Virus record (IMG/VR): IMGVR_UViG_3300030430_003380
Location: 1 to 62,400 of that record
Direction: 5' to 3' (one strand)
Length of the DNA stretch: 62,400 bases
Origin: a virus
Position numbers and translations under genes: made by a program. The notes beneath the pieces were generated by a model. That model saw only the letters and a program-made list of their open reading frames with translations. It did not search any database and was not told the origin of the DNA. The number at the start of each line of letters is the position of its first letter. Position 1 is the first letter of the stretch. Positions 1 through 62,400 of the stretch are shown one piece after another.

Positions 1-319
1 AATACTCAAAACCATCTACTCTACCAATTGTAGCAGCATCACTGTATGAGTTTTCTGTACCGTTATAAAAAGTTAAGGCTCTATTTTCGTATCCAAATCT
101 TTTTATCTTTCTAAGACCTACAGAAAAAGTATAATCAAACGGGGTTTCTATTACATCTTCTTCAAGAGATCCTGATGTTACAGACCAAACTTGATTGTCA
201 CCTAAAGATGTGCCACCATTTACTGCAGCATAAAAAGTAGAATATTTAAATATTTTGTGTAATCCCTGAGCACTTCCTAAAAAAGGAATAAATAATAATA
301 TTAATAGTATTTTTTTCAT
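1..319 (-). CDS. Outer-membrane barrel-like protein, N-terminal part (runs off window)
   Basis: The frame opens at ATG 319 and stays open for 106 codons to the window edge. It begins with a clear signal peptide (MKKILLILLFIPFLGSAQG), then short strands rich in aromatic and glycine residues (for example FDYTFSVGLRKIKRFGYENR), as expected for a barrel or periplasmic-facing envelope protein. Its ATG overlaps the stop of the T9SS protein gene (ATGA), so the two are probably translationally coupled. The right window edge carries the C-terminal end of a barrel protein in a compatible frame, and I infer that both are parts of one gene. The role is unknown; altering the host surface (for example superinfection exclusion) is one possibility. 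I do not recognise a named family with certainty. Confidence 0.72.
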   Translation of the reverse strand, partial: MKKILLILLFIPFLGSAQGLHKIFKYSTFYAAVNGGTSLGDNQVWSVTSGSLEEDVIETPFDYTFSVGLRKIKRFGYENRALTFYNGTENSYSDAATIGRVDGFEY

Positions 320-2730
320 CTCTTTAATACCTTCGTTGTGCTAGTGTTACCATTATACGTTACGCTAAAACTATAAATTCCAGAAGGAAGTAAACTTACA
401 TCTAATTGATTAAGACCTTTATGTGTTTGATTTTCTTTTATTTTAATAATAAGTTTACCTGATATATCATATACTTTTATACCAACAGGTCCATTAGTTA
501 GAATATTTAAGCTATCATCCATAGGGTTAGGATACATAACCACATTATGACCTCTAAGTAAATCTCTAGTATCAAGATCGCTATCTCCACTACAACTCCA
601 ATATAATTGTTGACACTTATCATCCCAGTTGTTATTACAACAATATGGATCAACCATAATAACCCAAGCATAACAGGTATCATTTAGCCAGTAAGGGACT
701 CCAGGACCTCCAATACAACCTGCATCATACAAACAACTTCCATCATCTGTATTATACACAGAGTTATAGTTGTGAGCAAAAGGATCCATACAGCCCTCTA
801 ATACATCTATACAACCCCCGTTGTCTGTATTAGCTAAAATATCGTAATTAAAAGCGTTTGAGTCTGTGCAACCATATACTATATCAACGCAAGAGAAATC
901 CTCTGTATTAGCCTCTAAATTGTAATTAAAGGCATTTGGGTCTGTGCATCCAGGAGTTATTGGAATACAAGACTCATTATTGGTGTTAGCAATAGGGTCA
1001 TAATTAAATGCAGTAGTATCAGTACACCCAAATATAAAAGGGATACAATTATCGCTTGCTGTATTCGCTTCATCATTATAATTATACATTGTAGGGTCCA
1101 TGCATCCTATTATTACAGGAATACAGCTACCATCATTAACATTAGATTCTATATTAAAATTAAACGCAAAAGGATCTGTACATCCTGGAACAGGATATAT
1201 ACAATTATCATTATTTACGTTTGCTGTACTATCGTAGTTAAGAGCTAAATTATCAGTACAACCAAAATACAAACAAGAACTATCTGCTACATTAGCAGCA
1301 TCATTAAAGTTCCAAGCTACCACATCCATACATCCATAAACAAAAGCTTCACACTCTCCGTCATCAACATTTGCTAGAGAGTCGTAATTAAAAGCTAATT
1401 CATTTGTACATCCTTCCACTACAGGAATACAATATCCAAAATCTGTATTAGCTAAAGAATCATAATTAAACGCTTCGGGATCCATGCAACCCTCTACTAC
1501 ATCTATACAATAATCACCACAATAAGGTAAAGCACTATATATATGCCAAAAAGGTGGCTCAAAAGGTTGAAGTGCACCTGCACCATTCATAGCAAATGGA
1601 TTAGATCCTCCTGATATTAATAAATCTAAATCTTCGTTAAATAAAGAAAAAGAATTGTGCATTGTTTGAAATTCTAACTCTTCTTGAGGTACTTGTGGTG
1701 GACCTAATTCAAAATATCTGATATGAACAGGAATATCTGTTCTTAAATATATCCATTTAACCTCTTCATATATACCAGGTCCTAAAGTGTATACTCCAAG
1801 AATAGAATCTCCTTGTGTAATAGCTAAATGAGAATCACCCCATCCGTCACCTCCTGCATCATTTAAAACTAATTTGTATTCACATATAGGAACTATATCA
1901 TTTAATGTAGCTTCAGGATCATAGTTATATGCATTCCAATTTAAACAACCTACAATATGTTCTGTTTCACAGCTACCATCATCTACTTGTGCAAAAGGAT
2001 TAAACTCCATGAAATCATTATCCATACATCCATATACAGTAGGTATTTCACAATTCTCTACATATATAACGCCTGAATATGCTACAGCTCCAAAATTAGA
2101 ATCAGGTAACTCCCATAATACGTCAGGGCTACCACAAGGCTCTAAATCACCCATAATAGTAAAACTACCATCTGAGCCTCCCCACTGACTACCACCTAAT
2201 CCATCACCATATGTATCACTTAATATAAGCTCTACACCTGTTTCAGGCACACACACTTGATATGGTATTGTAGTATTAGCTTGATTGTATGTATATTCAC
2301 CAGCTGCTACACTTTCTACTGGTTGTCCTGTAGATACATCTGTAAGAATCCATCCTGTTTCTCCAGGGTATTGATCTAATGTAATTTCAAGAAGCATTTT
2401 TGCTTGCCCTTCATCACATTCTACGTTAGCACAGCTACCATTATCTGTATCTGCTAAAGGATTGTAGTTTATAGCTTCTGGATCCATACATCCAGGTGTA
2501 ATATTAGGGTCTATTGGTAAAGGGCAATCACCATTATCAAATCCAAACTCAGGGCAGTTAAAATTTATAAGATAACCATTCCAGGAATATGTGTTGTCAT
2601 CACAAAAACCATCACCTAACCAACTTTCAGGAGCTTCATTTTCTGCACAATCTAAAAATAAAGTGTCTTGAGAGTAAACGTTTAAAGATATAAACGTAAA
2701 TAAAATAGTTAGTCTAGTTAACATTTCCAT
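316..2730 (-). CDS. Secreted multi-repeat protein with T9SS C-terminal sorting domain
   Basis: A protein of 804 residues. A signal peptide ends near residue 20 (VYS-QD). A Cys-rich segment at 28-69 (WLGDGFCDD...FDNGDC) resembles a Lin-12/Notch-type repeat. A segment near 105-235 with YGDGLGGSQWGG resembles modules common in secreted Bacteroidota proteins. Thirteen GC-(M/T)D-x-x-AxNY(N/D)...C repeats of about 21 residues lie between residues 80 and 680, many ending DDGSC, so calcium-binding acidic loops are likely. Residues about 733-804 (YPNP...LNI...VKVYDISGKLI...KVLKR) match the type A Por secretion-tail family, which directs T9SS export and surface attachment in Bacteroidetes. MLTRL, two codons in, is an equally good start. 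It overlaps the upstream basic-protein gene by 13 bases and the downstream barrel gene by 4. Whether it is virion-borne or made in the cell cannot be told from sequence. Confidence 0.88.
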   Translation of the reverse strand: MEMLTRLTILFTFISLNVYSQDTLFLDCAENEAPESWLGDGFCDDNTYSWNGYLINFNCPEFGFDNGDCPLPIDPNITPGCMDPEAINYNPLADTDNGSCANVECDEGQAKMLLEITLDQYPGETGWILTDVSTGQPVESVAAGEYTYNQANTTIPYQVCVPETGVELILSDTYGDGLGGSQWGGSDGSFTIMGDLEPCGSPDVLWELPDSNFGAVAYSGVIYVENCEIPTVYGCMDNDFMEFNPFAQVDDGSCETEHIVGCLNWNAYNYDPEATLNDIVPICEYKLVLNDAGGDGWGDSHLAITQGDSILGVYTLGPGIYEEVKWIYLRTDIPVHIRYFELGPPQVPQEELEFQTMHNSFSLFNEDLDLLISGGSNPFAMNGAGALQPFEPPFWHIYSALPYCGDYCIDVVEGCMDPEAFNYDSLANTDFGYCIPVVEGCTNELAFNYDSLANVDDGECEAFVYGCMDVVAWNFNDAANVADSSCLYFGCTDNLALNYDSTANVNNDNCIYPVPGCTDPFAFNFNIESNVNDGSCIPVIIGCMDPTMYNYNDEANTASDNCIPFIFGCTDTTAFNYDPIANTNNESCIPITPGCTDPNAFNYNLEANTEDFSCVDIVYGCTDSNAFNYDILANTDNGGCIDVLEGCMDPFAHNYNSVYNTDDGSCLYDAGCIGGPGVPYWLNDTCYAWVIMVDPYCCNNNWDDKCQQLYWSCSGDSDLDTRDLLRGHNVVMYPNPMDDSLNILTNGPVGIKVYDISGKLIIKIKENQTHKGLNQLDVSLLPSGIYSFSVTYNGNTSTTKVLKR

Positions 2731-3026
2731 CTTCTTCGTGCTTGTCGGATTCTTGAGTTAGGATTATTTCTAGTTTTTGCACTACTACGTTTTAGTTGAC
2801 CTAAAGATCTAGCACAATAAGATTTTCTTCTTTTAGCTGCTTTACTGCCAGGTTTTACTTTACCAGTTACAGCAGTTTTAAGTTTACTACCAGGATTTGC
2901 ACGTCTATATGCAGCGACACCTTTTTTTGTCATCCCAGCACCTTTTTTAGTAGGTCTAAAATTACCAGACTTAATACTGGTTTTTATACCCATACCTTTT
3001 TTTGCTTTTTTTATTACTTTAGCCAT
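2718..3026 (-). CDS. Small highly basic protein
   Basis: A protein of 102 residues, strongly basic throughout (MAKVIKKAKKGMGIKT at the start, RIRQARRRWKC at the end), with Pro/Gly linkers and no hydrophobic core. It is the third of three consecutive short basic genes that abut or overlap by one base (TAATG-type junctions), so they are probably made together. Similar basic proteins occur in marine phages and large DNA viruses. A DNA-binding or packaged, condensing role is inferred from charge only. It has two cysteines, one terminal. Confidence 0.75.
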   Translation of the reverse strand: MAKVIKKAKKGMGIKTSIKSGNFRPTKKGAGMTKKGVAAYRRANPGSKLKTAVTGKVKPGSKAAKRRKSYCARSLGQLKRSSAKTRNNPNSRIRQARRRWKC

Positions 3027-3292
3027 TATCTCTTACGTTTGCGAACAGCTTTTACTTTTCTTTTTCTTTTATACCTAGACACCCTACCTTTAGTATTTTT
3101 TTCTTTTTGGGCTCTACGTTTTTCACTAGGGGTAAGTTCACTCCAAGTAGTGGGCGTATCTTTACTAATTCTTTTAGTAGGTCGAAAAGTGTTTTCACCA
3201 CCCTTGTAATCTTTCTTTCCTCTAGGTGTACGCCAGTCTTCTTTAAACCAACGTTTAAGTCGTAAACCTGCTGCTGTCTTTCTAACCGCCAT
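3026..3292 (-). CDS. Small highly basic protein (LKRWFKEDW type)
   Basis: A protein of 88 residues. The N-terminus reads LRLKRWFKEDWRTPRG, a pattern I recall from short basic proteins in cyanophages, pelagiphages and giant viruses, followed by a Pro/Thr segment (TPTTWSELTPSEKRRAQ) and a Lys/Arg tail (YKRKRKVKAVRKRKR). The start and stop overlap the flanking basic genes by one base. Nucleic-acid binding is the obvious inference. No catalytic motif is visible and the real function is unknown. Confidence 0.75.
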   Translation of the reverse strand: MAVRKTAAGLRLKRWFKEDWRTPRGKKDYKGGENTFRPTKRISKDTPTTWSELTPSEKRRAQKEKNTKGRVSRYKRKRKVKAVRKRKR

Positions 3293-3498
3293 TACTTCTT
3301 TTTCTTACCACCTTCACCCCAGTTAGCAGCACCTACTTTTCTACACTTAGCCATTGCACCACTTCTATAAGCTGAAGTCTTAGGTCCGTATCTAGATACT
3401 ACTTTGTGGTAGCAAGCATCTTTTACAGAGCCACCTTTCTTCATGCTTTTAACTTTTTTCTTTCGCTTTACAGCTTTACAAGTGCAATTCTTTCCCAT
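3292..3498 (-). CDS. Small basic Cys-containing protein (KDACYHKV type)
   Basis: A protein of 68 residues. It has two parts: a CTC plus Lys-rich head (GKNCTCKAVKRKKKVKS) and a conserved-looking tail, KDACYHKVVSRYG followed by SAYRSGAMAKCRKVGAANWG. I recall the same tail from small proteins of marine phages and large eukaryotic viruses. The paired Cys and His residues could bind zinc, but this is inference. It is the first of the three-gene basic cluster and starts one base before the stop of the membrane-protein gene. Confidence 0.77.
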   Translation of the reverse strand: MGKNCTCKAVKRKKKVKSMKKGGSVKDACYHKVVSRYGPKTSAYRSGAMAKCRKVGAANWGEGGKKKK

Positions 3499-3710
3499 TA
3501 TTTATTAGCAAATTTTTCTACGCCAGAAATGCCAAACGAGCCAAGAACAACCCATACAAATGAATCGTATACAAACTCGTTTATTACTAGGTCTGATCCA
3601 ACCCACCCTGTAACAAGGTCAGCTATCATTATCAAACACATTATTGCAAAAGCTATAAATCCAACTATAGCCTTTTCATTCCAAGCGTTATCGTTCTTAA
3701 ATATTTCCAT
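3498..3710 (-). CDS. Two-helix membrane protein, holin-like
   Basis: A protein of 70 residues with two hydrophobic segments, about 14-36 (AIVGFIAFAIMCLIMIADLVTGWVG) and 45-62 (YDSFVWVVLGSFGISGV), joined by a short polar turn. Size and topology fit a small class II holin or antiholin, or a virion-associated membrane peptide. A separate three-helix holin candidate sits beside the endolysin near the other window edge, so this could be a second lysis membrane protein. It ends one base into the following basic-protein gene. Confidence 0.6.
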   Translation of the reverse strand: MEIFKNDNAWNEKAIVGFIAFAIMCLIMIADLVTGWVGSDLVINEFVYDSFVWVVLGSFGISGVEKFANK

Positions 3711-22651: not shown

Positions 22652-25600
22652 TTATTTATAAGTATCTCCTATTGGTAATCTTAAAACCTTACCATGATCC
22701 CTCCACACTCTATTAATAATATGATCAGCTAGATGATTAGGCACTTTCAATTTATTAATCATAAGCTCTTTACTTTGATTTAAAGTATAGTGGTGAGCCC
22801 TTGCTGCAGCCACTAATACAGCCATCTGATCAACAAAGCCACTAAGATGTGGATCATAAAGAGGACTAAGTCTATTTAGTCTGCTATTTAGCTCATCCTG
22901 ATCGTACAAATTAAACTTCTCTCTGTTTAGTAAAGGTAGATTAATACCTTCTTCATAGAATATTTTATTACCTTTAGCTCTAGACTTAATCTTATTGAAC
23001 TGATCAGATAACTTAAACTGAGCTGATGTATCAGTATATATTCTACTTACTCTAAAACCAAGTAGTGCAGATATTTCATAAGAAACAACCCTTCTCTTGT
23101 CTGGATCAAAAGCATCATACAACTTAAACCCTTGCATAGCTGTAGAAGGTGCAAGCTTACCGCCAACGTATGTAACTACAGCAGGAATTATATCGTACCA
23201 TGGAGCTTCTTTATTGTATATTCTTTCAAACTCATTATCTCTAGCCTCTTGTATAGCGTTAAGAGTCATTTCCTCTGACAAGAATGGTTTGTATATTGTC
23301 TCTAGTATTCTAACTAAAGCGTCTTTACCATCTTTACTATCCACACCCTTAACAGCTATTCTAATCATATCTCTTATGTATCCTATACCAGACATCTTAG
23401 ACATGTTAACATAATCAACGTAAGGTCTACCTTGTTCATCTACACCACTACCTTTAGGTACTACGAAACCTGTTTGATCCCAATCAGGTTGTAATGCTCT
23501 TAGGTATCTTTTCTCAACCTCTTCGTCATCTCCTGCACCAAGTAACATTTGAAGCATCATTAGTTGTAAAGATTCTACAAGTGTTATTGTAGCTATAGAT
23601 GAGGCAAGTCTTGTTACACCCATTGATTTCAACTCTGGGTTACCACTACTCATCTCATTAAATGCTAGCATTACAGAGTTCTTAGCACATCTGATAGACT
23701 CAGCCTGGAATGCTACGAAGGTACCAACAAAAGGTGATCGACCTATGAATCTAATTATTCTAGGTATCTCATTATAGTTAGGGTAAGTGTTTCTTACATT
23801 CTCTGCGGCAACTAGGTCTGCCTCGTTTTCAGAAAGACCAGCTTTCATGTATTTTTCTTTCTCACTTAAAAATCCAAATATCTTAAATACATCATCTTCA
23901 GCTTGATACGCAGCAGTTAGTTTTTGATCTAATGTCTTTAACAACTTAGCTATATCACTTTCAGACTTGTTTGCAAAGAAAGTGTCAACATCAAAGTCTG
24001 CATCAGATAAATCTTTTGCTATACCTCTAATTTCTTGTAATGATGCAGACGAACTAACTACTCCAAGCTTGACTAGTTTTTTATAAAGATCTTTCATCTC
24101 AGGATCTTTAAACGTAGATACAGCTTGTATAGCTACCCTAGCAGAAGTAAACAACTTCTTACCATCCAAGTGACCATTCATTAACATGAAAGAAGAGTTA
24201 CCTATAATATTTCTTGTATGAGTACCAACACTCCAGATAGTCTTCATCTTTTTACCAAACATAACTACCTTCATGTATTGCTGATAGAAGTAGTTATCAA
24301 ACATATTCATCTTTCTATCAATCTCACTCAATACAGAGTACATCTCATCATCCAAGAAGTAACCATTTAAACTTCCAAATCTAGGATCTTTAACTTGGTT
24401 GTTAAACCCTTGATTTAATATCGCAGGTCTTCTACCAGATTCATCTGGTGGTGACAAGAATAATCCTTCACCAATATCTATAAGCTCTCTGTACATTTTA
24501 TCAGAGGTCACAGTTCTTGCTATCTTAGATATAGTATTTGTATAGTTGTAGAAAGGATCGTGTATCTCACCAAGTAAATCTCTAATCTCTACTGGTAGAT
24601 CTTCATTTCTAGCCATGAATATAGAACCAACTCTAGTTAATGCGTTACCAAAACCTTGTGAATAAGTCTGTATTCTTTCAGCTCTTGAAGTTTCATCTCC
24701 ATTCTGTATTATATCTAAGTCTTGTTTAGCAAAATCATAAGCCTCCTGCTCTGATAGTTCAGGATTTTTTTCCATATGAGCATTGGTCATAAAGTTCAAA
24801 GCTCTGTTAATTATCTTTTGATCTTCTTGCTTCCAACCCTTCTTCTCATACTGTCTGTATCTTCTTGTAAGATAAACACCAAGATTAGCATCAACCTTAA
24901 GAGTTGTAGGACCATCAACAATCTCCTCTCTAATTAAAGTTTTACTGAGCTGATCTATATGATCTCTCATGTTTATAAAAGCAGCTTTAAGTCTAGGGTT
25001 TCTTAACCTTAGTATCTTAGATCTGTCAGCTAAAAGCTCTGTGGCTTTTTGACCATCTATTTTTCTCTTACCAGAAACACTATTATTATATTCTATTATA
25101 GCAGCCTTAACTTCTTTAACGTTTTCACTAGCCTCAAACAACTCTTTATTTAAAGCACCTTGTGCCACAGTCATAAGGTCTTTAACCTCTTTACTACTAT
25201 GAGTACCAAATGGTTTTGCAAACAATCTAGATAACCTAACATCATACTGCTTGTCAGATATAGCCTTGAATGATGTAGCCCACCGACCTAAATCATAATC
25301 TCTTTCTATCATCATACGACCTATATCCCAAAGAACAGCAAAACCACCACGTCTATAAACAGTTCTACCTTGCTGGTTTGCTAGTTGGAATCTAGTTTTC
25401 GTATTAGATCTTACAGGTTCCCAAGTTGTAGCCATCTGTTTTCCACTATCATCAAACAAGAATCCTTGGAATCCTAATCCAGAGGCTAACTTAGCAATCT
25501 CTTCCATCTGATTGTAAGATACATCTTTAGACTTAACTTCTTTAGTATCTATGTTATCACAACAATCCTTAAGACTTTCTATCACTTCTTCAGATATATG

Positions 25601-28600
25601 CTCTGGGTAGTTAATCTTTACAGATAAACCTGTCTCTGTAGGTATAACTTCAGATGTATTTATGTGACCAAAGTTATCTGTATCTTCAAGAGCATGTCTA
25701 ACTAAGAATAAGCTAAGATTCATAGCATCCATATCCTTAGTTTCAAAGTTTAGGGTAGACTCCATTCTGTTTTCTGAATCCTTAAACCTATCTATATTGT
25801 AGTTAGCTACATCTCTTAGGTTTAGTGGATCCTTGTCTAGTGGATATAGTCTATCCATAGGGAACATAGATTTAACTTGAACGTCACCTATTCTTGAGTT
25901 TTCTTTTATATCAAGATTAGTATCAAAGAATGCTCTAGATCTAGACCACTTATTGTATTGTTCGTTAGAGAATGGTGTCATCTTCACGTTAGAAGGATCT
26001 ACCATCTCTGTATTTTCTGGAGCATAATGACTTAGAGATACCATGTTATCTATAATCTCCATATCTGGATACTCATTCTTAAGCTCCTCATAAGAGTCTG
26101 TAAGTTTAGCAAACTGTCTAGGATTTAAATTGCTAGTACCATTTTGATTAAGTTGGAACTTAGCTATACCTTTATTCTTGTGAGACTCCACCATATCCTG
26201 AGTTATAGGGAAGTTTCTAGCTCTCATTGGTTGTTTCTCTATAATCCCTCCACTTTCTAAATATTCAACAACTTTATCAGATAGTTTAAGTTTTGAAAGT
26301 AGGCTATTTCTATCAGCAACCAAAGCACCATCAATAGCAGCTTTAACTGGATTTATTAATTCTTTTAAATTAGATACGCCAATTTCTTGGGCTGACTCAG
26401 GAAATTCGTCAATTTTTTCTCTAATTGGCATAAGAAAACCATTTTGAAGATCATCTAAAAACGCTTCCTTACTCTCGTATATAGGAACAGACTCCACCTC
26501 TACGCTTTGAGTTATTCCCTCACCAACAGTTGTCCCTCCAAATGTTGAAATACGATTGACAAGTTTTTTACCTTTCGTGTATAGAGTTAAAACTTTACCA
26601 TCTTTCCTTAAACCTGTAGCATTACCAAGAAGCATGTCTATCTTTTGAACTGCAGTCCTAATCTCAACATCAGTTTCTACCTTAACTTCTTTTACAAGAT
26701 CTTCCCTTAGGTTACCTTTAGGACTCTCCATCTCATCTAACAAAACTGCTTCAACAGTATCTTGAAGGTATGTTTGAGTAATAAGGTTGTATAATTCATT
26801 ACTTATAGTACCATCCTCTTCAACCTGTATATCTATGAAGTCTAAAGGACTCTTACCTTCTCTCTCAAACTGACCTCTAACAATATTAGGTAGAGTATTG
26901 TCGTAGAAGTTTTTTAAACCTTCAGCTTGTTTACCCTCTGTAGGGACACCCTCTATCACCACACTCTCTTCACCAGTAATTAAAGCTACAGAGTCGTAAC
27001 CATTTTGTATAGCCACCTTCATTGCAGCTCTGACAGCTAGACCTGTATTCTTTGTTATATCACTCCAAGGGAAGTTAGGAACTCTATTTAAAACTTTAGT
27101 ATTCCTACTGAACTCTTTACGAACTTCCTCAAGATCTAAATCTTCTATTTTTTTCTCTAAAGCTTTTTTCTTAGAATTATAGTTTTCCCTCATAGAAACT
27201 ATCTCACGAGTTAAGCCATTAGCACGAGGATTAAATCCATTTAACTCCTCTGTAGTATTTAAACTAGAACCAAAATAAGTATCTAGTTTTGTCTCTAGCT
27301 CTGCAATCTTCCCATCATCTGGGGTAGTAGAGTTTATAAGTGTTGTTATTTGACTATCAAAATCTTCTAGTTCACGCTTATGTTGCTCTTCAAGACCGTC
27401 AAGAATTTGATCTCTAGTTGACTGAAGATCAATAATTTCATCGTAAAGTCTACTCTCTTCAACTTGTAATCTATCTATTTTAGCAGACAACTCACGACTC
27501 TTATCTCTAGCCTCAACTATATCTTTTAGTTCAGCAAAACCTTTCTTTCTACCTTCAGCCTCCCAATCAGATTGAACCTCTAGTATTAACAAAACTTTCT
27601 TACCATCCACAATCCTATCCTCTGTTCTAACAAATCCAACTAGGTTATCATTAAACCCAGTAAAGTGTCCACTGGTGTGGATTGTTTCACCTTTAGGGTT
27701 AAGGTTTATAAGTATGTTTTGAGGATTGTTTCTATCTTTTCTATTTCTATTTCTACCCCACGATACTGTAGCGTACTTAGAATTATATTTTTCTCTTAAC
27801 TCAGCTAAACTATTAACTCCAGGAAACAGAGATGACTTTGCTACAAAGTCAGATAGAACGATATACCTAACATCATTAGGCTCATTAACTCCACTATCTC
27901 TTATTGTTGTTGGCTCATTAGTGTTTAAAAAGTTTACAGCTATACCTGATAACCTGAAAGAATTAAGATCAAAGTCTTCATCAACACCTGTCATTTTGTG
28001 AGTTTCAATATCACCATTAGGCATTTTAATATCAAACGTTATATCGTAGGTAATATTTCCCTCATCATCAGGTACTCTTATATCTTTTTGAATTACACGA
28101 GAAACATTCTTCACAGTAACATCACCAAAATCTTTTTCTTCAATAACAAAGTTTTCACCTAATAAAGTAACCTCAATATCTGGAGTTAGGTTGTTAACTA
28201 ACACCTTTACATCTTCATATGTAGGATTCTTACCTGTAGTCTTAACTACGGTGTTCAAAGCCTCCTCTAAACCTGTAGATTTTATCTCATCACCAACACC
28301 CTTAACACCTGTGTCCTGCATTAACTTAATCCACTGCTTAACAGGTTTTCTAAACTTTCTACCTTTCTTAATTGTATTTAAGGTAGTGATTAAGTTAGAG
28401 TCAAAGTTCAGTGAGTTTCTTGCACTTAACTGAAACTTAGTTTCTTCTATGGTTATAGCATCAGGATCAAAGACAACATAGTTTCTAGCGTCACCTTCCT
28501 TATATGTCATACCATCTATACCAGCAGAAAGCATTAACATGGATGCTTCTTTCTGTGAACCTAGCTGACTCTCTAACTGTCCATAAAGTTGTGCTGTTGT

Positions 28601-31600
28601 AATGTTAGACTTCTCCTCAATCATGTAAGCTCTGTCAGCCTTACTAACTTTATCGTCACCAATCATCTCATCTACAATCTTCTCAACTGTTTCAACAGGA
28701 ACCTTAGAGTCCCAGTCTAAGTAGTCATACTCGTGATGTTGTTTTCCTGCGTGGAGTGAAACCTTAACTAAAGTACCAGCTCTTTTATAATTAGGTCTTA
28801 TATCATTGTTAGCCCAATCAAGAAGGTCTTGCGATGCTTCGTATTCAAATCTAAATTGATTTACTGCTGAGTCAAAATCAGACGTACCCTCTAGTAAATC
28901 TAAAAATATAGACTTCATCTCCATCTCTCTATAAGCTTCTTGAGATCTTACAGCACGAGCTTTATTCACCAACATAGTGTTGTACTCATGTACAGGCATG
29001 CTACCTATCTTATCATCTGCTGATGTAACTGATCCATCTCTATAACCTTTAGCTACTTCTTGCTCACTAGAGAAATAGAAACCATGACCATACTGAAGGT
29101 GACTCTTAATATAATTAGGGTTAAACTTGTCTATATTATTTGGACCACCATGATATAAATTACTTATTTGGAATCTACCAAACGCAGCATCACCGCCAGT
29201 AAAGTCATTAATAACATCTACGTTTGTTACAATACCACCATACATAGCAACATTGTAAGCTGACCTGTCTTGCTTATGCTTGAAAGGAATAGGTTTATTT
29301 TTCTTCTTTTCTGTCTCAGACATATAATTAGGAAAGGCTTCCTTTATATGAATAAACTTATTGAATATTTTGAAGTTACCTCCAGGTAAAACAAAAGGAT
29401 AACCAGGGTGATGACCAGCATCTCCCTCCTTAGTTTCTTTAATCGTAGCGTTAGTGTCTAAGTCTACAACACCAATAAGGTCACCCATTCTAGCATTCTC
29501 TATGAGTGGCTCGTTAACAAACTTTAATAAATCTTCAGGTCTAGGTAAACCAAGTTTTTTATTAAACTCAATCTTGTACAACTCTTGCATCACTTTGTTT
29601 CTATCACCAGTACCTATGGTTCTCATGTAGGCTTTAAACTCATCAAAGTTTTTAAACTTTTTCTTTGGTAAGTTTGTGTCTCTCTTTAATTTTTTTCTCT
29701 TACCTGTAACCTTATCTGTTTCCCAAAAATGATTAAGAACTGCAGCTTTATTAAAGGTGTTGTTTATCTGAGCTATAATTTCATTTCCAAACTTTTTATT
29801 GTTTTTTGATAAAGCTAACTCAACTTCTTTCTCAACATACTCTATAAAGTTTAAGTTTCCAGAAATAGAAGCGTTACTCATAGCCATAAAGACAACCTTT
29901 GTAACATCATCTTTTTTAAGTTTGTTTAGTAGGTTTTCAGCTTTAGACTTAGTAGTCCAAGCCCAACCTCCAGTGTCTTTCATCATAGGGTATAGTAATC
30001 CACCCATCATCTTATGCTTAACTCCAGTATCACTAGTTATATTACCAACTGAAGACCTGTCGATAGGAGCCACATAAACCTTTTCTCCATTTAAATCTAT
30101 AATAGATCCTACAGGAATATCTGTTTCTGAAAAATCAAATCTTTCTCTAAGCTGAAACTTAGATGGACCTCTATCAGATAGTAAATCTTCAGACACCTCT
30201 ACAAAGTCTGTAAGCATATCCTCACCAGCCTCAAGAGAGTTTTTTGTCATCGAATTATACTTAGCTTGGAACATTGCAACCTCTGTTGGCTCACCAACTT
30301 CAAACTCGTTTCCTGCTATGTTAATTTTCTTACCAGCTACGAAAGACTTAGCTAAACCTTTTTTAAGGTCACCTAGATTCTGTACAGTATCAAGTGTTAG
30401 ATCAAATATTTCACCATCAAAGTCAACGCCAAAGTAATGTTGTATAATATTCTTTACAGCCTGTTTTATTCTACCAAGAGTGCTTTGACTTCTTATAAAT
30501 TGATTTACAGCAGCATCACCCATCATCTCAGCAAAAGCTTCTTCAGTAAAGTATGCTCTCTTCTCTGCTGCAGACTTATCTTTTAAATAAGATGCAACCA
30601 TTTCGTTATTACCATACAACTGTTTAGCCCACTCGTAGTAAGACAACCTGATCCTTCTACCATCTTCAAGAACTATAAGCTTTGAATCTGATACTCCATC
30701 TGCTTTTCTTACAAGCTTTTCTATTTGTTTATATATCTTTCTACCTTCCTTTGTAGTCTTTAATTTATTTACCAAAGGATGTATTATCTCGTGGAACAAA
30801 GTATTACCTTGTATGTATTCCATGTTAAGATATATGGTGTCACCAAGGTAGAAAGCTGACTGACGAGAGTGACCAACTGGATCGTTGACCCCCTTTTGTG
30901 CTAGCATCTGAGCCATAGAGTCAGAGTTTCTAGCTATAGAGAAGTTAAGGTTACCTATAGATGATAACATCTTAACAATGAATCCTAATATTTTTTGTCT
31001 ACTATTAGGGTAGCCTTCAAAGAATGTAGCATCATAGTTTTCGCTAGTTGAGTCTAACTGATCCATGTTGTCAGCGTTAATATCCTTACCATGAACAGCC
31101 TCGTTTGTACCAAATCTTATAGAGAACTTTCTACCATTAGCATCTTTCATTATAAAGAAACTAGCACCATTTCTAGCGTCTGGTGATTTCTCTACAATAC
31201 CGTTTACAGACTGAACACTACCATTACTATTTAGAACACCTGTCTTACTTGAGAACACAGAAGTTTGACCAAAATTTCTACCCAGATTTAAAGCCTGAGC
31301 ATCTGTAAGCCCTTCAACCATGAACGATTCTTTAGACACTCCATTCTCTACAGTCCTAACAGTTTTATATTTAACTCCAAGGGCATCTAGCCTAGCCTTT
31401 AAGTTAGTAGACCTATTTTTGTTTTGCTCTGCAGTGTATCCATTCTTTTGCGATGATACAATATGGTAGTCTTTCTGTAAGTCATCTTGAGATACAGAGT
31501 CCATACTCTTAGCATCAGCTTTTCTAAACTCTAAGTTATTCTTCTTTACAAGCTCTGCCTTAGCATTCTCTTTAGCCATATCAGCTTTCTTCATCTCCGC

Positions 31601-34288
31601 CTGTCTGTGAGCCTCTAATAATTGATGTGCAGTTTCGTAATTTATGTTAGCAAACTCTATGGTGCCAACATCAGCACCAAGACCCTTACCTTGTTTACCT
31701 GAGTCTACAAGAACAGCAGTACCATCATGTTTTACAACAAACTCAAAAGTCCTATCCTGTAAAGCATCAAACTCTCTAGCACCTGTAGTAGCCTTAGCTT
31801 CTTTATCAGTTTGTTCTATATACTCTTCAAGTTTAGCTATCTGACTTTCTGTTAAAATCTTACCAAGCTGATTAACGTTTACACGAACAGCACTACCAGA
31901 TCCGACACCTGCTTCAGCTAACTTCTGTTCTACATACTCTATTCTGTTTTCGTTTATCTCTTTTTTGGTATACTCACCATCTTTATACTGAAACTTCTCC
32001 TCTGCTTCTTTCTGAAACTTTCTAGTCAAAGCTTTTTTTACAGCCTGAAACTCATCCTCTCCCTCTTTAGATACAGTGAATGAACCAGCTTGAAAGTCTG
32101 CAAGATTACCAATAGATATTCCTTTACTCTTTAAGAAAGAGTTTAATCTAGAGATAGTGCTTTCGTAAACTTTACTGGTAACAACAGTACCCTTATCAGC
32201 TATCAAAGCATCTATCTTAGATAAAGTCTCTTGTATACCATTTATTATATCAGCAGCACCACCATTCTTTACATTATTTTTATCTACAGATTCAATAGTT
32301 TTCAAGGACTTATCAAGTTCTTTAACCAACTCTAGCATAGAATCTCTAGCCTCCATAGCATCTTGACTGGTGTACCCCTCTAGTTTAGCTTTCATTTTAG
32401 CCTCTACTTCTGAGTCAATAGAGGTGTCAAACCCTATATCACCATTAGCTACAGCAGCTAAATTAGTTTCATCCTGAAAGAACAATAATGCATCCCTTCT
32501 AGTTAAAACTCTTTCGCTACCTGTCTTGTTATCAGTTATAGTTATAGAAGCTAAATTTTCTAAATCACCACTAATATCCTTCATAAAAGAATACCTAAGT
32601 TGTCTACTACCAATAACACCACCCATACCTGCACCAAGAATACCAGCATCAGTAACCTTCATTACAGCGTCAACGAAACTCTCTGGGGTACCAGCACCTG
32701 TTATAGCGTCATTAAGGATATTAGTAACCTCTGTACCCATCTCTGACCCAGCTTCCATACCCATGCCCTTGAAGTAATTTTTAACAAAGTTTTCTGACAT
32801 CTCCGTTGGAACATCAACTAACTTCATTTTACGCAGCTTACGCATAGTGTTTATATACTGGTAGGTAGGTATTTCAAATATCATCTCAGCACCACCACTA
32901 ACCATAGAGTTTATAGCTATCATAAGGGTACTCATGTCTACCTCACCTCTCTCTCTCATGTCCTTAAGGTCTAAAGACTTTTGACCATAAGCACTGGTAC
33001 CCATAGCACCTAAAGTTATACGCTGTGCTGCAGTTGTAGACAATCCAGCAGCTCCAAGAAACGCACCACCAGCATACATAGATAAGATCTGTGGTGCTGT
33101 TTGTGCTAAACCATTTCCAAACTGAGCTATAGCGTTACCAATGTTACCCTCTGTTAAAGATTCTGTAATACCATCAAACTCATAAGCTCTAGTTTTTTTC
33201 ATCCAAGATTCAGAACTCTCTTTAAGTGATCTTGCTATCTCACCACCATATCTATTGTAAGCTGTTATATTGTAATTGTTCATAGAGCCATAAGCAAGGA
33301 TTCCCTCTAAAGGCTCTATAATACCAGCAAGTAAACCTAGACTACCGCTAGCAAAAGAGTCAGCTAAATCACTAAACTGACCACCAGCCTCTAACTGTCT
33401 CTGATATAGGTTATTAAGGTAAGCACCCATCTCACTATTCTCAACCATTATAGGAGATATGTAGACATCATTCTTACCTTCTTGAAGGTCGTCTACAAAA
33501 TCTTGGTCTAACAAAGACTCCTTCATCTCTACAGGACTAACGTTTTTACCGTTAATCTTGAAGTGTTCCATCTGAACAAAAGTCTCATCTATACCCCTTT
33601 CTTTGAGGACATCCTCAATCTCACTTGGAGCATAGTTAATTACAGCATCATTAAAGTTTTGGGTGTTATAAGCTATGTCAGCTTCCTTAAACTCTTCTTT
33701 AAATAAATCTATTCTAGAGTTTAGAGTAGATAATTTATTATCGTTCATACGAGCATCAGAACCATAAGGATCCTTCTCTAACTTCATTTGCAACTCTCTT
33801 TGTTGCTTTAAAAGTTCTTGATAATATCGGTAATCTACACCGTAGTTTTCATACCATTGAGCCTTATATTCTTCTGTAGTTGGTACTTTTGATTGCTCTT
33901 CTTGTTCAAGCTTAACTTGTTTTTGCTTAAACCTATTCTCTGCAGATTCTAAAAGATAGTCTGAGTCTTCCGATTGAGATGTAATAGGTTCTTGATCTTG
34001 ATCCATGCTGACTTCCATAGTAGGCTCCGCATCTGAAGAATCTTTTTTTTTTACATCTTCTTGTGAAACATCTTGCTTAGGTTGTTGCTCTTTAGGTTTT
34101 TGTTCAACCCCCATAAGACTAGCAAAATCTTCTAAGCTATCTTCATAACCGTCTTGTTTAAATAAACCATAAGAGTGCGACAAAGCCTCTGGGTTTTCAG
34201 ACATAAGTATTTTAAATTCATCTAAACTATCACTATATCCATCTTTAGTGAATAAATCGTAGGCATACTGAATTGCTTCTTCGTTCAT
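22652..34288 (-). CDS. Giant polyvalent ejection protein (3878 residues)
   Basis: Two N-terminal repeats of the type YDLFTKDGYSDSLDEFKILM (about 9-28 and 38-57), seen at the N-terminus of phage ejection proteins, are followed by a charged linker. Hydrophobic stretches at about 310-340, 390-480 and 545-570 suggest membrane passage. A zinc metallopeptidase motif H1166EIIH1170 has a downstream EEAFAEMMGD helix (E1249-E1250). An ADP-ribosyltransferase-like start LYHGGP (1711-1716) continues into GHGFYFSSE. A VQSDW block (W2242) typical of polyvalent proteins has GYDSVALITG after it. The C-terminal 800 residues hold THTRNIIGNSSF and PFVGTFVAFQAESIR. F-Q-(L/I/A) junctions lie between domains. It probably enters the host with the DNA; no RNA-polymerase DFDGD motif is present. 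It is preceded by two other ejection-type genes. Confidence 0.8.
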   Translation of the reverse strand: MNEEAIQYAYDLFTKDGYSDSLDEFKILMSENPEALSHSYGLFKQDGYEDSLEDFASLMGVEQKPKEQQPKQDVSQEDVKKKDSSDAEPTMEVSMDQDQEPITSQSEDSDYLLESAENRFKQKQVKLEQEEQSKVPTTEEYKAQWYENYGVDYRYYQELLKQQRELQMKLEKDPYGSDARMNDNKLSTLNSRIDLFKEEFKEADIAYNTQNFNDAVINYAPSEIEDVLKERGIDETFVQMEHFKINGKNVSPVEMKESLLDQDFVDDLQEGKNDVYISPIMVENSEMGAYLNNLYQRQLEAGGQFSDLADSFASGSLGLLAGIIEPLEGILAYGSMNNYNITAYNRYGGEIARSLKESSESWMKKTRAYEFDGITESLTEGNIGNAIAQFGNGLAQTAPQILSMYAGGAFLGAAGLSTTAAQRITLGAMGTSAYGQKSLDLKDMRERGEVDMSTLMIAINSMVSGGAEMIFEIPTYQYINTMRKLRKMKLVDVPTEMSENFVKNYFKGMGMEAGSEMGTEVTNILNDAITGAGTPESFVDAVMKVTDAGILGAGMGGVIGSRQLRYSFMKDISGDLENLASITITDNKTGSERVLTRRDALLFFQDETNLAAVANGDIGFDTSIDSEVEAKMKAKLEGYTSQDAMEARDSMLELVKELDKSLKTIESVDKNNVKNGGAADIINGIQETLSKIDALIADKGTVVTSKVYESTISRLNSFLKSKGISIGNLADFQAGSFTVSKEGEDEFQAVKKALTRKFQKEAEEKFQYKDGEYTKKEINENRIEYVEQKLAEAGVGSGSAVRVNVNQLGKILTESQIAKLEEYIEQTDKEAKATTGAREFDALQDRTFEFVVKHDGTAVLVDSGKQGKGLGADVGTIEFANINYETAHQLLEAHRQAEMKKADMAKENAKAELVKKNNLEFRKADAKSMDSVSQDDLQKDYHIVSSQKNGYTAEQNKNRSTNLKARLDALGVKYKTVRTVENGVSKESFMVEGLTDAQALNLGRNFGQTSVFSSKTGVLNSNGSVQSVNGIVEKSPDARNGASFFIMKDANGRKFSIRFGTNEAVHGKDINADNMDQLDSTSENYDATFFEGYPNSRQKILGFIVKMLSSIGNLNFSIARNSDSMAQMLAQKGVNDPVGHSRQSAFYLGDTIYLNMEYIQGNTLFHEIIHPLVNKLKTTKEGRKIYKQIEKLVRKADGVSDSKLIVLEDGRRIRLSYYEWAKQLYGNNEMVASYLKDKSAAEKRAYFTEEAFAEMMGDAAVNQFIRSQSTLGRIKQAVKNIIQHYFGVDFDGEIFDLTLDTVQNLGDLKKGLAKSFVAGKKINIAGNEFEVGEPTEVAMFQAKYNSMTKNSLEAGEDMLTDFVEVSEDLLSDRGPSKFQLRERFDFSETDIPVGSIIDLNGEKVYVAPIDRSSVGNITSDTGVKHKMMGGLLYPMMKDTGGWAWTTKSKAENLLNKLKKDDVTKVVFMAMSNASISGNLNFIEYVEKEVELALSKNNKKFGNEIIAQINNTFNKAAVLNHFWETDKVTGKRKKLKRDTNLPKKKFKNFDEFKAYMRTIGTGDRNKVMQELYKIEFNKKLGLPRPEDLLKFVNEPLIENARMGDLIGVVDLDTNATIKETKEGDAGHHPGYPFVLPGGNFKIFNKFIHIKEAFPNYMSETEKKKNKPIPFKHKQDRSAYNVAMYGGIVTNVDVINDFTGGDAAFGRFQISNLYHGGPNNIDKFNPNYIKSHLQYGHGFYFSSEQEVAKGYRDGSVTSADDKIGSMPVHEYNTMLVNKARAVRSQEAYREMEMKSIFLDLLEGTSDFDSAVNQFRFEYEASQDLLDWANNDIRPNYKRAGTLVKVSLHAGKQHHEYDYLDWDSKVPVETVEKIVDEMIGDDKVSKADRAYMIEEKSNITTAQLYGQLESQLGSQKEASMLMLSAGIDGMTYKEGDARNYVVFDPDAITIEETKFQLSARNSLNFDSNLITTLNTIKKGRKFRKPVKQWIKLMQDTGVKGVGDEIKSTGLEEALNTVVKTTGKNPTYEDVKVLVNNLTPDIEVTLLGENFVIEEKDFGDVTVKNVSRVIQKDIRVPDDEGNITYDITFDIKMPNGDIETHKMTGVDEDFDLNSFRLSGIAVNFLNTNEPTTIRDSGVNEPNDVRYIVLSDFVAKSSLFPGVNSLAELREKYNSKYATVSWGRNRNRKDRNNPQNILINLNPKGETIHTSGHFTGFNDNLVGFVRTEDRIVDGKKVLLILEVQSDWEAEGRKKGFAELKDIVEARDKSRELSAKIDRLQVEESRLYDEIIDLQSTRDQILDGLEEQHKRELEDFDSQITTLINSTTPDDGKIAELETKLDTYFGSSLNTTEELNGFNPRANGLTREIVSMRENYNSKKKALEKKIEDLDLEEVRKEFSRNTKVLNRVPNFPWSDITKNTGLAVRAAMKVAIQNGYDSVALITGEESVVIEGVPTEGKQAEGLKNFYDNTLPNIVRGQFEREGKSPLDFIDIQVEEDGTISNELYNLITQTYLQDTVEAVLLDEMESPKGNLREDLVKEVKVETDVEIRTAVQKIDMLLGNATGLRKDGKVLTLYTKGKKLVNRISTFGGTTVGEGITQSVEVESVPIYESKEAFLDDLQNGFLMPIREKIDEFPESAQEIGVSNLKELINPVKAAIDGALVADRNSLLSKLKLSDKVVEYLESGGIIEKQPMRARNFPITQDMVESHKNKGIAKFQLNQNGTSNLNPRQFAKLTDSYEELKNEYPDMEIIDNMVSLSHYAPENTEMVDPSNVKMTPFSNEQYNKWSRSRAFFDTNLDIKENSRIGDVQVKSMFPMDRLYPLDKDPLNLRDVANYNIDRFKDSENRMESTLNFETKDMDAMNLSLFLVRHALEDTDNFGHINTSEVIPTETGLSVKINYPEHISEEVIESLKDCCDNIDTKEVKSKDVSYNQMEEIAKLASGLGFQGFLFDDSGKQMATTWEPVRSNTKTRFQLANQQGRTVYRRGGFAVLWDIGRMMIERDYDLGRWATSFKAISDKQYDVRLSRLFAKPFGTHSSKEVKDLMTVAQGALNKELFEASENVKEVKAAIIEYNNSVSGKRKIDGQKATELLADRSKILRLRNPRLKAAFINMRDHIDQLSKTLIREEIVDGPTTLKVDANLGVYLTRRYRQYEKKGWKQEDQKIINRALNFMTNAHMEKNPELSEQEAYDFAKQDLDIIQNGDETSRAERIQTYSQGFGNALTRVGSIFMARNEDLPVEIRDLLGEIHDPFYNYTNTISKIARTVTSDKMYRELIDIGEGLFLSPPDESGRRPAILNQGFNNQVKDPRFGSLNGYFLDDEMYSVLSEIDRKMNMFDNYFYQQYMKVVMFGKKMKTIWSVGTHTRNIIGNSSFMLMNGHLDGKKLFTSARVAIQAVSTFKDPEMKDLYKKLVKLGVVSSSASLQEIRGIAKDLSDADFDVDTFFANKSESDIAKLLKTLDQKLTAAYQAEDDVFKIFGFLSEKEKYMKAGLSENEADLVAAENVRNTYPNYNEIPRIIRFIGRSPFVGTFVAFQAESIRCAKNSVMLAFNEMSSGNPELKSMGVTRLASSIATITLVESLQLMMLQMLLGAGDDEEVEKRYLRALQPDWDQTGFVVPKGSGVDEQGRPYVDYVNMSKMSGIGYIRDMIRIAVKGVDSKDGKDALVRILETIYKPFLSEEMTLNAIQEARDNEFERIYNKEAPWYDIIPAVVTYVGGKLAPSTAMQGFKLYDAFDPDKRRVVSYEISALLGFRVSRIYTDTSAQFKLSDQFNKIKSRAKGNKIFYEEGINLPLLNREKFNLYDQDELNSRLNRLSPLYDPHLSGFVDQMAVLVAAARAHHYTLNQSKELMINKLKVPNHLADHIINRVWRDHGKVLRLPIGDTYK

Positions 34289-60654: not shown

Positions 60655-61041
60655 TTATTTTTTTCTTATTTTTTCTATAGACCTACCTGCAAAGTAAGCT
60701 CCATATACTGTTATTAATAATGTTTGATATATAGGTATATAACTTTCTTGAATAACAAACTCTCCTATATTGCCATCAAACACTGACAAAACTACAAAAA
60801 TTGCAGTTAAAAATATACATATCAAAGGTCTGATGTTTTTACTAAGCCAGTTGTCAGACTTCATATCTGCTTCCCAACGTCTAGTAACTTGTTCTTGAGC
60901 TTGTGCTTCTGCCTGAATAAGAACTTCTTTCATAGCTTTTTTAGCAGCCATGGCTTCTTCTTTTGATGTAGATAAATTATCTACAACATTACCAAGTTTT
61001 TCAATTACACCTCCACCTAAAAAACTTAATAACTTACTCAT
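60655..61041 (-). CDS. Holin, three-TM/GTA-type
   Basis: A protein of 128 residues. An amphipathic N-terminal half (KEEAMAAKKAMKEVLIQAEAQ, then RWEADMKSDNWLSKNIRPL) is followed by hydrophobic helices at about 73-92 (LICIFLTAIFVVLSVFDG) and 104-122 (IYQTLLITVYGAYFAG) and a basic tail RSIEKIRKK. This is the pattern of the holin-of-3TMs family. It overlaps the endolysin stop by 4 bases, the expected lysis pair. Confidence 0.78.
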   Translation of the reverse strand: MSKLLSFLGGGVIEKLGNVVDNLSTSKEEAMAAKKAMKEVLIQAEAQAQEQVTRRWEADMKSDNWLSKNIRPLICIFLTAIFVVLSVFDGNIGEFVIQESYIPIYQTLLITVYGAYFAGRSIEKIRKK

Positions 61042-61493
61042 GACTCAACAAATTTATATTTTGTTTTTCCTTTTTCATTTTTGTAAGCCTCAAGAACTTC
61101 ATTTCTGTTACTGTTTTTCTTTAAAGATATATGTATCCAGGAAAAATTAAACTCGTTTATCATTTGATCAAACTCTAAATTTGAATCCAAAATCCAATCA
61201 TATATAACTTTATTATTCATTTTTCCATCACTCCAGTATTGCAGGTCCAAAGCTTGAGCTTTGCTATGCTGACTGCGAGATGATCCACCAATAGCTTTAT
61301 TGAGTTGCGGGCTACGATAACCACTACTAATACGAATAGGACCAATACTGTCCCTAAGAGGTTGTATGAGGTTGTCAATAAGGTTTTGCATATTTTCCAA
61401 ATGTTCCTGAGACATCTCATTTTTTATTCCTAACCTTTTAGCTGTATTACTATGCTCAATTTCTGCACGAGTAAAATTTTTACTTATTTTCAT
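61038..61493 (-). CDS. Endolysin, M15-family peptidase
   Basis: A protein of 151 residues. The D,D-/L,D-peptidase motifs are clear: ISSGYRSPQLN (55-65), SQHSKAQALDLQ (H76, D83) and WIHISL (H121), which bind zinc and cut peptidoglycan cross-links. FTRAEIEHSNTAKRLGI at the start is the typical cell-wall-recognition-like lead of phage M15_3 members. No signal peptide is seen, so it depends on the holin next to it. Confidence 0.88.
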   Translation of the reverse strand: MKISKNFTRAEIEHSNTAKRLGIKNEMSQEHLENMQNLIDNLIQPLRDSIGPIRISSGYRSPQLNKAIGGSSRSQHSKAQALDLQYWSDGKMNNKVIYDWILDSNLEFDQMINEFNFSWIHISLKKNSNRNEVLEAYKNEKGKTKYKFVES

Positions 61494-61501
61494 AATTTAT
61501 T

Positions 61502-61840
61502 TTAAAATGCTTCCATGACTATTTCATCTATAGAATCTTGAACATCTTTTTTAGTAGCTTCCATAGTCATCATTATATTTGCTTGAAATCTTTTTACTTC
61601 TTCATTATTATTAAAAATTACAATAGTAGGCACAACTACTATTTTATATTCTTTAGACCATCTTGAATCTGCAGTTATATCAACTCTTTTGGTTTTGCAA
61701 TCTGTAAGTTTTGGCAACCAAACCACCTCATTAGTTTTATTAAAACTAGCATTAAATTCAACAGCAACCATACCATCAGGAAAATCCTGACTAAAAGCTG
61801 ATAATGATATAAAAAAAAATGTAATTAGTAATTTTTTCAT
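61502..61840 (-). CDS. Exported thioredoxin-fold protein without CxxC
   Basis: A protein of 112 residues. Signal peptide MKKLLITFFFISLSAFSQ is followed by a thioredoxin-like core: VAVEFNASFN, TKRVDITADSRWSKEYKI, VVVPTIVIFNN and EVKRFQANI. The cis-proline position (VPT) is kept, but the CxxC motif is replaced, and the only Cys is in LTDCK. It therefore seems to have lost redox activity and may act as a chaperone or binding protein in the periplasm. It lies between the endolysin and the membrane-anchored coiled-coil gene. Confidence 0.7.
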   Translation of the reverse strand: MKKLLITFFFISLSAFSQDFPDGMVAVEFNASFNKTNEVVWLPKLTDCKTKRVDITADSRWSKEYKIVVVPTIVIFNNNEEVKRFQANIMMTMEATKKDVQDSIDEIVMEAF

Positions 61841-61844
61841 AACT

Positions 61845-62129
61845 CTATCTTAAGTTATCAATCTTTTCTTCCATTCTAATCATTTGATTTTTTATCTCTT
61901 TTACATCTTCTTGAGTTGTCATAATAGTTTGTCGTATAAGTTGATCTTTCATATCATACTCCATACGAGTAATTTCAGGGTCAGGAGGCAGGGGTAGTTC
62001 TTTAGCATCTGCTATATCATTTTGAAGTGTAAACCACATTCCAACTAATGTAAATATAAGAACAGCAATACCCGCTAGTGTTTTTAAACTTATATTAAAT
62101 GATGTTTCTTCGCTTAATTCTTTTGCCAT
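61845..62129 (-). CDS. Membrane-anchored coiled-coil protein, spanin-like
   Basis: A protein of 94 residues. One membrane segment (about 15-36, LKTLAGIAVLIFTLVGMWFTLQ), a Pro-rich hinge (LPLPPDPEI) and a C-terminal coiled coil (DVKEIKNQMIRMEEKIDNL). Topology is like an inner-membrane spanin, and it sits in the lysis region, but no outer-membrane partner is obvious. Other membrane-tethered roles are possible. Confidence 0.6.
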   Translation of the reverse strand: MAKELSEETSFNISLKTLAGIAVLIFTLVGMWFTLQNDIADAKELPLPPDPEITRMEYDMKDQLIRQTIMTTQEDVKEIKNQMIRMEEKIDNLR

Positions 62130-62131
62130 GA

Positions 62132-62400
62132 TTAAAATATTACATAATTAAGACCCACACTAAAGTTGTGCCACTGTCTGTTCCAATACTTATTGTACCT
62201 ACCCTCTACAAATATACCTAAACTTTTATTAAATCTATAACCGTATATTAAGCCAATAGAGTAATCTATCCATTGACCATTATTATACTTATGATATGAA
62301 TATAAATTATCAGTATCTAAATGATAAGGCATAATGTTTCCCCAAGTGTGAAACCAAAAATCTTTTGTAAAATGATAATAATCTAAACCTAAAACAAAAG
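62132..62400 (-). CDS. Outer-membrane barrel-like protein, C-terminal part (runs off window)
   Basis: The frame is open from the right window edge to the stop at 62132-62134, about 89 codons. It consists of alternating aromatic strands (GLDYYHFTKDFWFHTWGNI, YSIGLIYGYRFNKSLGIFVE, QWHNFSVGLNYVIF), ending in Phe, as outer-membrane barrels do. The ATG at 62332 is only an inner Met; upstream codons keep the same character. I infer this to be the other end of the gene whose N-terminus is at 1-319, if the genome is circular. Confidence 0.7.
   Translation of the reverse strand, partial: FVLGLDYYHFTKDFWFHTWGNIMPYHLDTDNLYSYHKYNNGQWIDYSIGLIYGYRFNKSLGIFVEGRYNKYWNRQWHNFSVGLNYVIF

Follow-up and report, generated by a model that had tools for sequence, protein, structure and literature searches.

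The main reading of the window, the whole stretch of 62,400 nucleotides that was analysed, is that of a conserved phage envelope module with a surface protein of the type IX secretion system (T9SS), for which receptor shielding is the leading, though not certain, purpose (probability about 0.5). According to sequence comparisons, the T9SS protein appears to be part of a conserved four-gene phage module, which is often accompanied by a holin-like gene nearby. In Bacteroidetes, T9SS is the principal pathway by which proteins reach the cell surface. The parts of the reading have been weighed separately: export of the 804-aa protein by the host T9SS is very probable from its sequence signals, joint action of the four module genes is probable, and receptor shielding as their purpose is tentative and falls somewhat short of even odds.

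The window, a virus record of IMG/VR, carries genes for terminase large subunit, portal, virion proteins, a GroES-like protein, holin and M15 endolysin, and it further encodes an Erf-type annealing protein, exonuclease VIII, DnaB helicase and a resolvase. No integrase has been detected among the window ORFs scanned, and no tRNA has been found in the window. The first-pass annotation had proposed a phage-encoded T9SS-type substrate, and the terminase, portal, holin, endolysin and virion genes indeed identify a genuine phage genome around it. The nearest deposited relatives of TerL belong to a Caudoviricetes phage from Manatee Spring (48%) and to phages of Maribacter, Flavobacterium and Cellulophaga. 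The nearest cultured relatives by TerL infect Flavobacteriia, which makes a member of this class the candidate host of the window phage, and T9SS is present in the phylum to which Flavobacteriia belong. One barrel gene is split between the two window ends, its N-terminal part at one and its C-terminal part at the other; the contig therefore reads as a circularly permuted, nearly closed map, from which ∼450 bp of the barrel gene are missing. Among the larger proteins, a virion protein of 2068 aa (37224-43430) weakly matches the C-terminal domain of the crAss muzzle protein (E 0.004, below cut-off), a hint of distant kinship to Crassvirales. In the 3878-aa protein on the structural strand (22652-34288), residues 1711-1771 weakly resemble an ADP-ribosyltransferase (polyvalent protein), residues 952-1011 match DUF3293, and a virion-protein PHROG is matched close to the C-terminus. 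The module and its surroundings are arranged as follows:

2..319 (-): N-terminal 106 aa of the barrel; the gene is cut by the contig end and is ∼344 aa long in relatives
316..2730 (-): T9SS-type substrate gene, 804 aa, ORF open from ATG
319..537 (-): predicted T9SS type A C-terminal sorting domain, residues 732-804 (TIGR04183, PF18962, Foldseek, dN/dS)
589..720 (-): Cys-rich domain PYWLNDTCYAWVIMVDPYCCNNNWDDKCQ, residues 671-714, where conservation of the T9SS protein is highest
733..1491 (-): ten tandem GC repeats, residues 414-666 (pattern match)
2668..2730 (-): signal peptide, residues 1-21, Q-rule type, ...NVYSQ followed by D (read from sequence)
2718..3292 (-): two small basic proteins, with DUF6321 and DUF5872, immediately upstream; the nearer of them overlaps the T9SS gene start
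3498..3710 (-): tm70, a 70-aa small membrane protein upstream of the T9SS gene, resembling a holin by eye
60655..61041 (-): holin (phrog_3427 4e-26)
61038..61493 (-): M15 peptidase endolysin (phrog_894 2e-37; PF08291 2e-15)
61502..61840 (-): trx112, 112 aa, with signal peptide and thioredoxin-like similarity, without CxxC (PF00085, TIGR01068)
61845..62129 (-): tmcc94, 94 aa, with short N-terminus, one TM segment, Pro-rich linker and coiled coil (topology by eye)
62132..62398 (-): C-terminal 88 aa of the same barrel gene, at the opposite contig end

The substrate gene encodes a signal peptide, an LNR-like segment, two DxxGDGx-type domains, 13 GC repeats, a Cys-rich C-terminal domain and a type A sorting domain. 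Translation may begin at M1 (2730) or at M3 (2724), because relatives start with MEML.. or MKKI... Directly upstream, at 2718-3498, the DUF6321 and DUF5872 proteins and a further one form a run of three small, very basic proteins. The signal peptide that had been read on this ORF is borne out as residues 1-21 of the Q-rule type. The claim of a Notch-like Cys segment has stood in part: a Notch/LNR-like segment can be seen at residues ∼28-69, an assignment made by eye only, but the Pfam search has given no match for it. The 13 GCxD...C repeats have been recovered in full, as the pattern GC-x(5-9)-[NE][YFW][NDQ]-x(8-16)-C occurs exactly 13 times in the protein, compared with 0.02 times on average and never more than 2 when the protein was shuffled 1000 times. 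Beside the tandem array, the three remaining copies are located at residues 80-100, 234-254 and 261-283, and the copy number in relatives ranges from 4 to 20. Giant putative virion proteins at three related loci (L124:106-4860, L048:2-5299, L056:2-6781) carry 3-6 GC repeats without a sorting domain, and none have been found in the window's own giant proteins. In the Cys-rich domain, a CC..WD..C core is present in 115/117 relatives. Except for the sorting domain and a few strands, the full-length T9SS protein has been modelled poorly by AlphaFold2 (AF2; pLDDT 61.9, pTM 0.30), and therefore no fold is claimed for the GC repeats. Likewise, since grouping the N-terminal regions of the relatives by BLAST has yielded one linked cluster, no domain swapping is claimed.

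The predicted sorting signal lies in the C-terminal domain. The first-pass annotation had read it as a Por-secretion-type T9SS domain and suggested a comparison with TIGR04183; the domain scores above the curated cut-off of this model (E=1e-11, 44.6 bits, cut-off 23) as well as that of Pfam PF18962 (E=5e-13, 49.5 bits, cut-off 27), and it is the only type A sorting domain in the 62.4-kb record. It is also the best-predicted part in the AF2 model of the T9SS protein, and Foldseek places the modelled domain closest to that of NucA, solved as part of a T9SS complex (8glk_D, TMt 0.79, also recovered by phmmer with E 0.0007), followed by two more from solved complexes, RemA CTD (8gl6_D, 0.73) and RemZ (8gl8_D, 0.71), and by RgpB CTD (0.59). 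The predicted sorting signal of the phage repeat protein is thus well supported by profiles and fold. Among 30 phage records tested, 24 have shown a TIGR04183 match, normally one per record; a second strong match at the far end of one record is probably a terminal repeat. A signal peptide has been found in all 117 distinct full-length relatives (117/117), as judged by a script for a hydrophobic N-terminus followed by Q and not by SignalP. Their C-termini fall into two types, a TIGR04183-type domain in 71 and an alternative motif (∼TDLLGRPxKxxKNKLLFYIYxDGTVERKxIK) in 46, and either type occurs within a single barrel lineage. Replacement of the type A domain by the alternative motif has been noted among L036, L037, L038, L041 and L123-L202. 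The alternative motif resembles the second half of the type A domain weakly (hhalign probability 38%) and was matched by no curated family model in this analysis; TIGR04183 has given no match in the tested relatives having it. It has been found in 80/150 genomes from the order of a Flavobacteriales metagenome-assembled genome (MAG), and at the ten host-order loci read, it lies at the C-terminal end of the ORF, nearly always together with a signal-peptide-like N-terminus. Both C-terminal types are taken as export signals, the alternative motif as a candidate one; the route of its carriers is uncertain because of the missing TIGR04183 match where tested and the weak CTD profile comparison.

The evolution of the T9SS protein has been followed by simple pairwise Nei-Gojobori dN/dS between the window gene and its relatives. 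Values are 0.09-0.30 for the sorting domain, 0.08-0.17 for the GC repeats and, where defined, 0.00-0.09 for the Cys-rich domain (671-714). The low dN/dS of the sorting domain indicates that the export signal has been maintained by purifying selection. Part of the N-terminal half changes fastest: residues 262-412 are the fastest-evolving in most pairs, with dN/dS up to 0.66.

The gene is joined to that of the barrel by an ATGA overlap, in which the barrel ATG at 319-317 overlies the T9SS-gene TGA at 318-316, precisely the coupling that had been noticed at first. The AF2 model of the barrel relative L002 has 14 strands at moderate confidence (pLDDT 69.6, pTM 0.63), and in the PDB the best Foldseek matches of the model come from various kinds of outer-membrane protein, with low TM. 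Most barrel relatives end in F, and many have an ordinary type I signal peptide, with a lipobox-like Cys, seen by eye, in some only. With signal peptide, antiparallel barrel and terminal aromatic residue, the protein is predicted to be of the outer-membrane beta-barrel type. It is highly conserved, with a mean column identity of 69% over 22 sequences. In the SprB-SprF / PorP pairing, a T9SS substrate gene is followed by an outer-membrane protein gene, and the module shares this arrangement; it differs in that its sorting domain is of type A, not type B, and in its barrel, for which PorP/SprF models have given no match in NCBIfam up to E=5 or in Pfam up to 0.1, so that an identity as PorP/SprF has been rejected. 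No match to the barrel has been found by tblastn in 50,697 deposited phage records, nor in 399 host-order genomes in a search run without positive control. A viral predicted structure (BFVD A0A516LKJ4) resembles the barrel (Foldseek E 2e-20, 24% identity) and is a likely homologue by its modelled fold; it was recovered neither by tblastn of two divergent barrels (E up to 10) nor in papers.

The two remaining module genes encode small predicted envelope proteins. The matches of trx112 are both below cut-off (PF00085 2e-4, TIGR01068 9e-5), and the CxxC active site is absent in 142/149 of its relatives. In tblastn against deposited phages, only partial matches to Streptomyces phage thioredoxins have been obtained; they are read as general fold similarity. 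For tmcc94 no spanin family match, and for tm70 no family match at all, has been found.

Conservation across phages has been traced from both ends of the coupling. A search for close phage relatives, as advised by the first-pass annotation, has located relatives of the T9SS protein in 44 IMG/VR loci, where the gene order in close relatives is T9SS protein, barrel (344 aa), tmcc94, trx112, M15 endolysin and holin, then terminase and portal. IMG/VR scans with two barrel lineages as queries have confirmed at least 573 and at least 460 barrel-encoding stretches, the best 80 of each of which were analysed. Among these best 80, a repeat/T9SS-type protein lies near the barrel at 54/54 and 33/33 loci with enough flank (58/58 under the criteria of a 76-locus survey), counts that come from related contigs and hence are not phylogenetically independent. 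The suspected coupling to an outer-membrane barrel has thereby turned out to be a near-universal co-occurrence among the best loci, and since one T9SS protein is normally present per phage record, the linkage is not due to chance. In lineage 1 the T9SS-type protein is usually the direct upstream neighbour of the barrel, and in lineage 2 it is found some genes downstream. Near the barrel, tmcc94 has been seen at 70/76 and trx112 at 73/76 of the best-scoring loci, and tm70 is near the module in many relatives. The module-bearing contigs are of several types, differ in other genes and reach up to 145 kb. Among deposited phages, tblastn with the CTD has retrieved just two weak matches, in 635-642 kb uncultured phages (E 0.004, 0.06).

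What the module may do has been considered against the established T9SS route, in which a protein is exported by Sec, recognised by its C-terminal domain, passed through the outer membrane and cleaved, and then attached or released. The module has the strand and order of the lysis and virion genes, and from its place on their strand, late expression is inferred. Late in infection, the T9SS protein would cross the inner membrane by Sec, the host T9SS would recognise its C-terminal domain and export the protein, and the domain would be removed while the phage protein is either anchored to the infected cell or set free from it; that it is displayed there is suggested by the sorting signals. With less certainty, the Cys-paired repeats could form a disulfide-bonded stalk presenting the faster-evolving N-terminal domains. 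The repeat protein, the barrel and the two partners may then alter the envelope in such a way that related phages or fresh progeny no longer adsorb to the cell or its debris. In marine phages of Bacteroidetes, a dedicated four-gene system that coats the infected cell via the host T9SS, with the phage protein anchored or guided by the phage barrel and two interchangeable sorting signals, would be a surface-remodelling or superinfection-exclusion machine, a possibility that we rate slightly below an even chance. The presence of the barrel counts against the main reading, since type A export as known works without a barrel supplied by a phage. A displayed protein with a fast-changing N-terminal region and envelope partners would suit shielding or superinfection exclusion, and if the giant repeat proteins are receptor-binding proteins, the shared repeats would suit receptor masking. 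The lipoprotein Llp of phage T5, which is small, sits at the host outer membrane and blocks adsorption, is alike in the proposed effect; in its place the module has a large T9SS-type surface protein and a barrel.

The frequent linkage to lysis genes could point elsewhere than superinfection exclusion, and a lysis role is the main rival to shielding. In a lysis or outer-membrane disruption module, tmcc94 would act like an i-spanin subunit, the barrel together with trx112 would replace the o-spanin lipoprotein, and the T9SS protein would have an accessory part, loosening or coating the surface when release takes place. Like spanins, these envelope proteins lie near holin and endolysin (M15 endolysin near the barrel at 44/76, holin or tm70 at 63/76 of the best-scoring loci), and the topology read by eye for tmcc94, one TM followed by a coiled coil, is i-spanin-like. 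Nevertheless, we consider the lysis role unlikely, at about one chance in four: no known spanin mechanism involves a protein exported to the surface, tmcc94 matches no spanin family, the barrel is large, highly conserved and unlike the o-spanin lipoprotein whose place it would take, and nearby lysis genes are absent at some loci.

Less likely still is an adhesin of the infected cell, in which the repeat protein would stick infected cells to neighbours or particles and so bring the phage nearer to new hosts before lysis. The LNR-like segment with the other N-terminal domains, the variable repeat number (4-20) and the occurrence of the same repeats in many host proteins would agree with such a role, which however leaves the membrane-anchored and periplasmic partners unexplained. 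The repeats are in fact common in Flavobacteriales (59/199 genomes at E up to 1e-20), some of the host proteins carrying sorting domains, and they may have come from hosts. No host homologue spanning the whole architecture has been found, the matches listed covering the repeat region only. The simple capture of one host adhesin, which the first-pass annotation had offered as an option, has therefore been rejected, in line with the absence of the barrel from the 399 host-order genomes searched and with the place of the protein in a conserved phage module; taken together, the module genes seem to belong to phages.

It is improbable that the T9SS protein joins the virion after lysis or forms a tail part, with an incidental sorting domain. 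Its gene lies on the structural strand and the giant putative virion proteins of some related contigs share 3-6 of the same repeats, whereas the conserved signal peptide and sorting domain direct the protein out of the cell and away from virion assembly, the protein has no PHROG match, and the window's giant proteins are free of repeats. Host DNA joined by assembly error, for which the commonness of GC repeats in host genomes might speak, is rejected as next to impossible because dozens of distinct contigs keep the gene order, with terminase, portal and lysis genes attached to it, and the barrel has been found neither in deposited phages nor in sampled host-order genomes.

With receptor shielding by a putatively exported surface protein retained as the leading purpose, the module can be set beside earlier systems. 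In signal peptide and type A domain (HMM and fold), the protein is like the T9SS type A substrates NucA and RemA of Flavobacterium johnsoniae and RgpB of Porphyromonas gingivalis, and it differs from them in being phage-encoded, inside a conserved barrel module, and in that its export is predicted. Phage use of T9SS has been found in one report only, on Cryophage (PMC7468147), in which three variable T9SS-tagged genes were described as a unique occurrence and a hijack of the host system was suggested. Both cases involve phage genes with T9SS type A sorting domains; those of Cryophage are variable island genes (endoglucanase, GH39, PA14) of one phage type, whereas here one conserved gene with different domains belongs to a fixed module of many phages. 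Genes of unknown function with Q-rule signal peptides have been reported in P. gingivalis phages (PMC10367356). For the present module, no description has been found in open-access papers, most subscription papers and preprints lying outside the search.

The sorting signal belongs to a conserved module, with at least 573 and at least 460 barrel stretches in IMG/VR, yet the barrel is unmatched by tblastn in the 50,697 deposited phage records. If the protein is exported, a common marine phage group would rebuild the host surface during infection, with consequences for phage-phage competition and the fate of cell debris.
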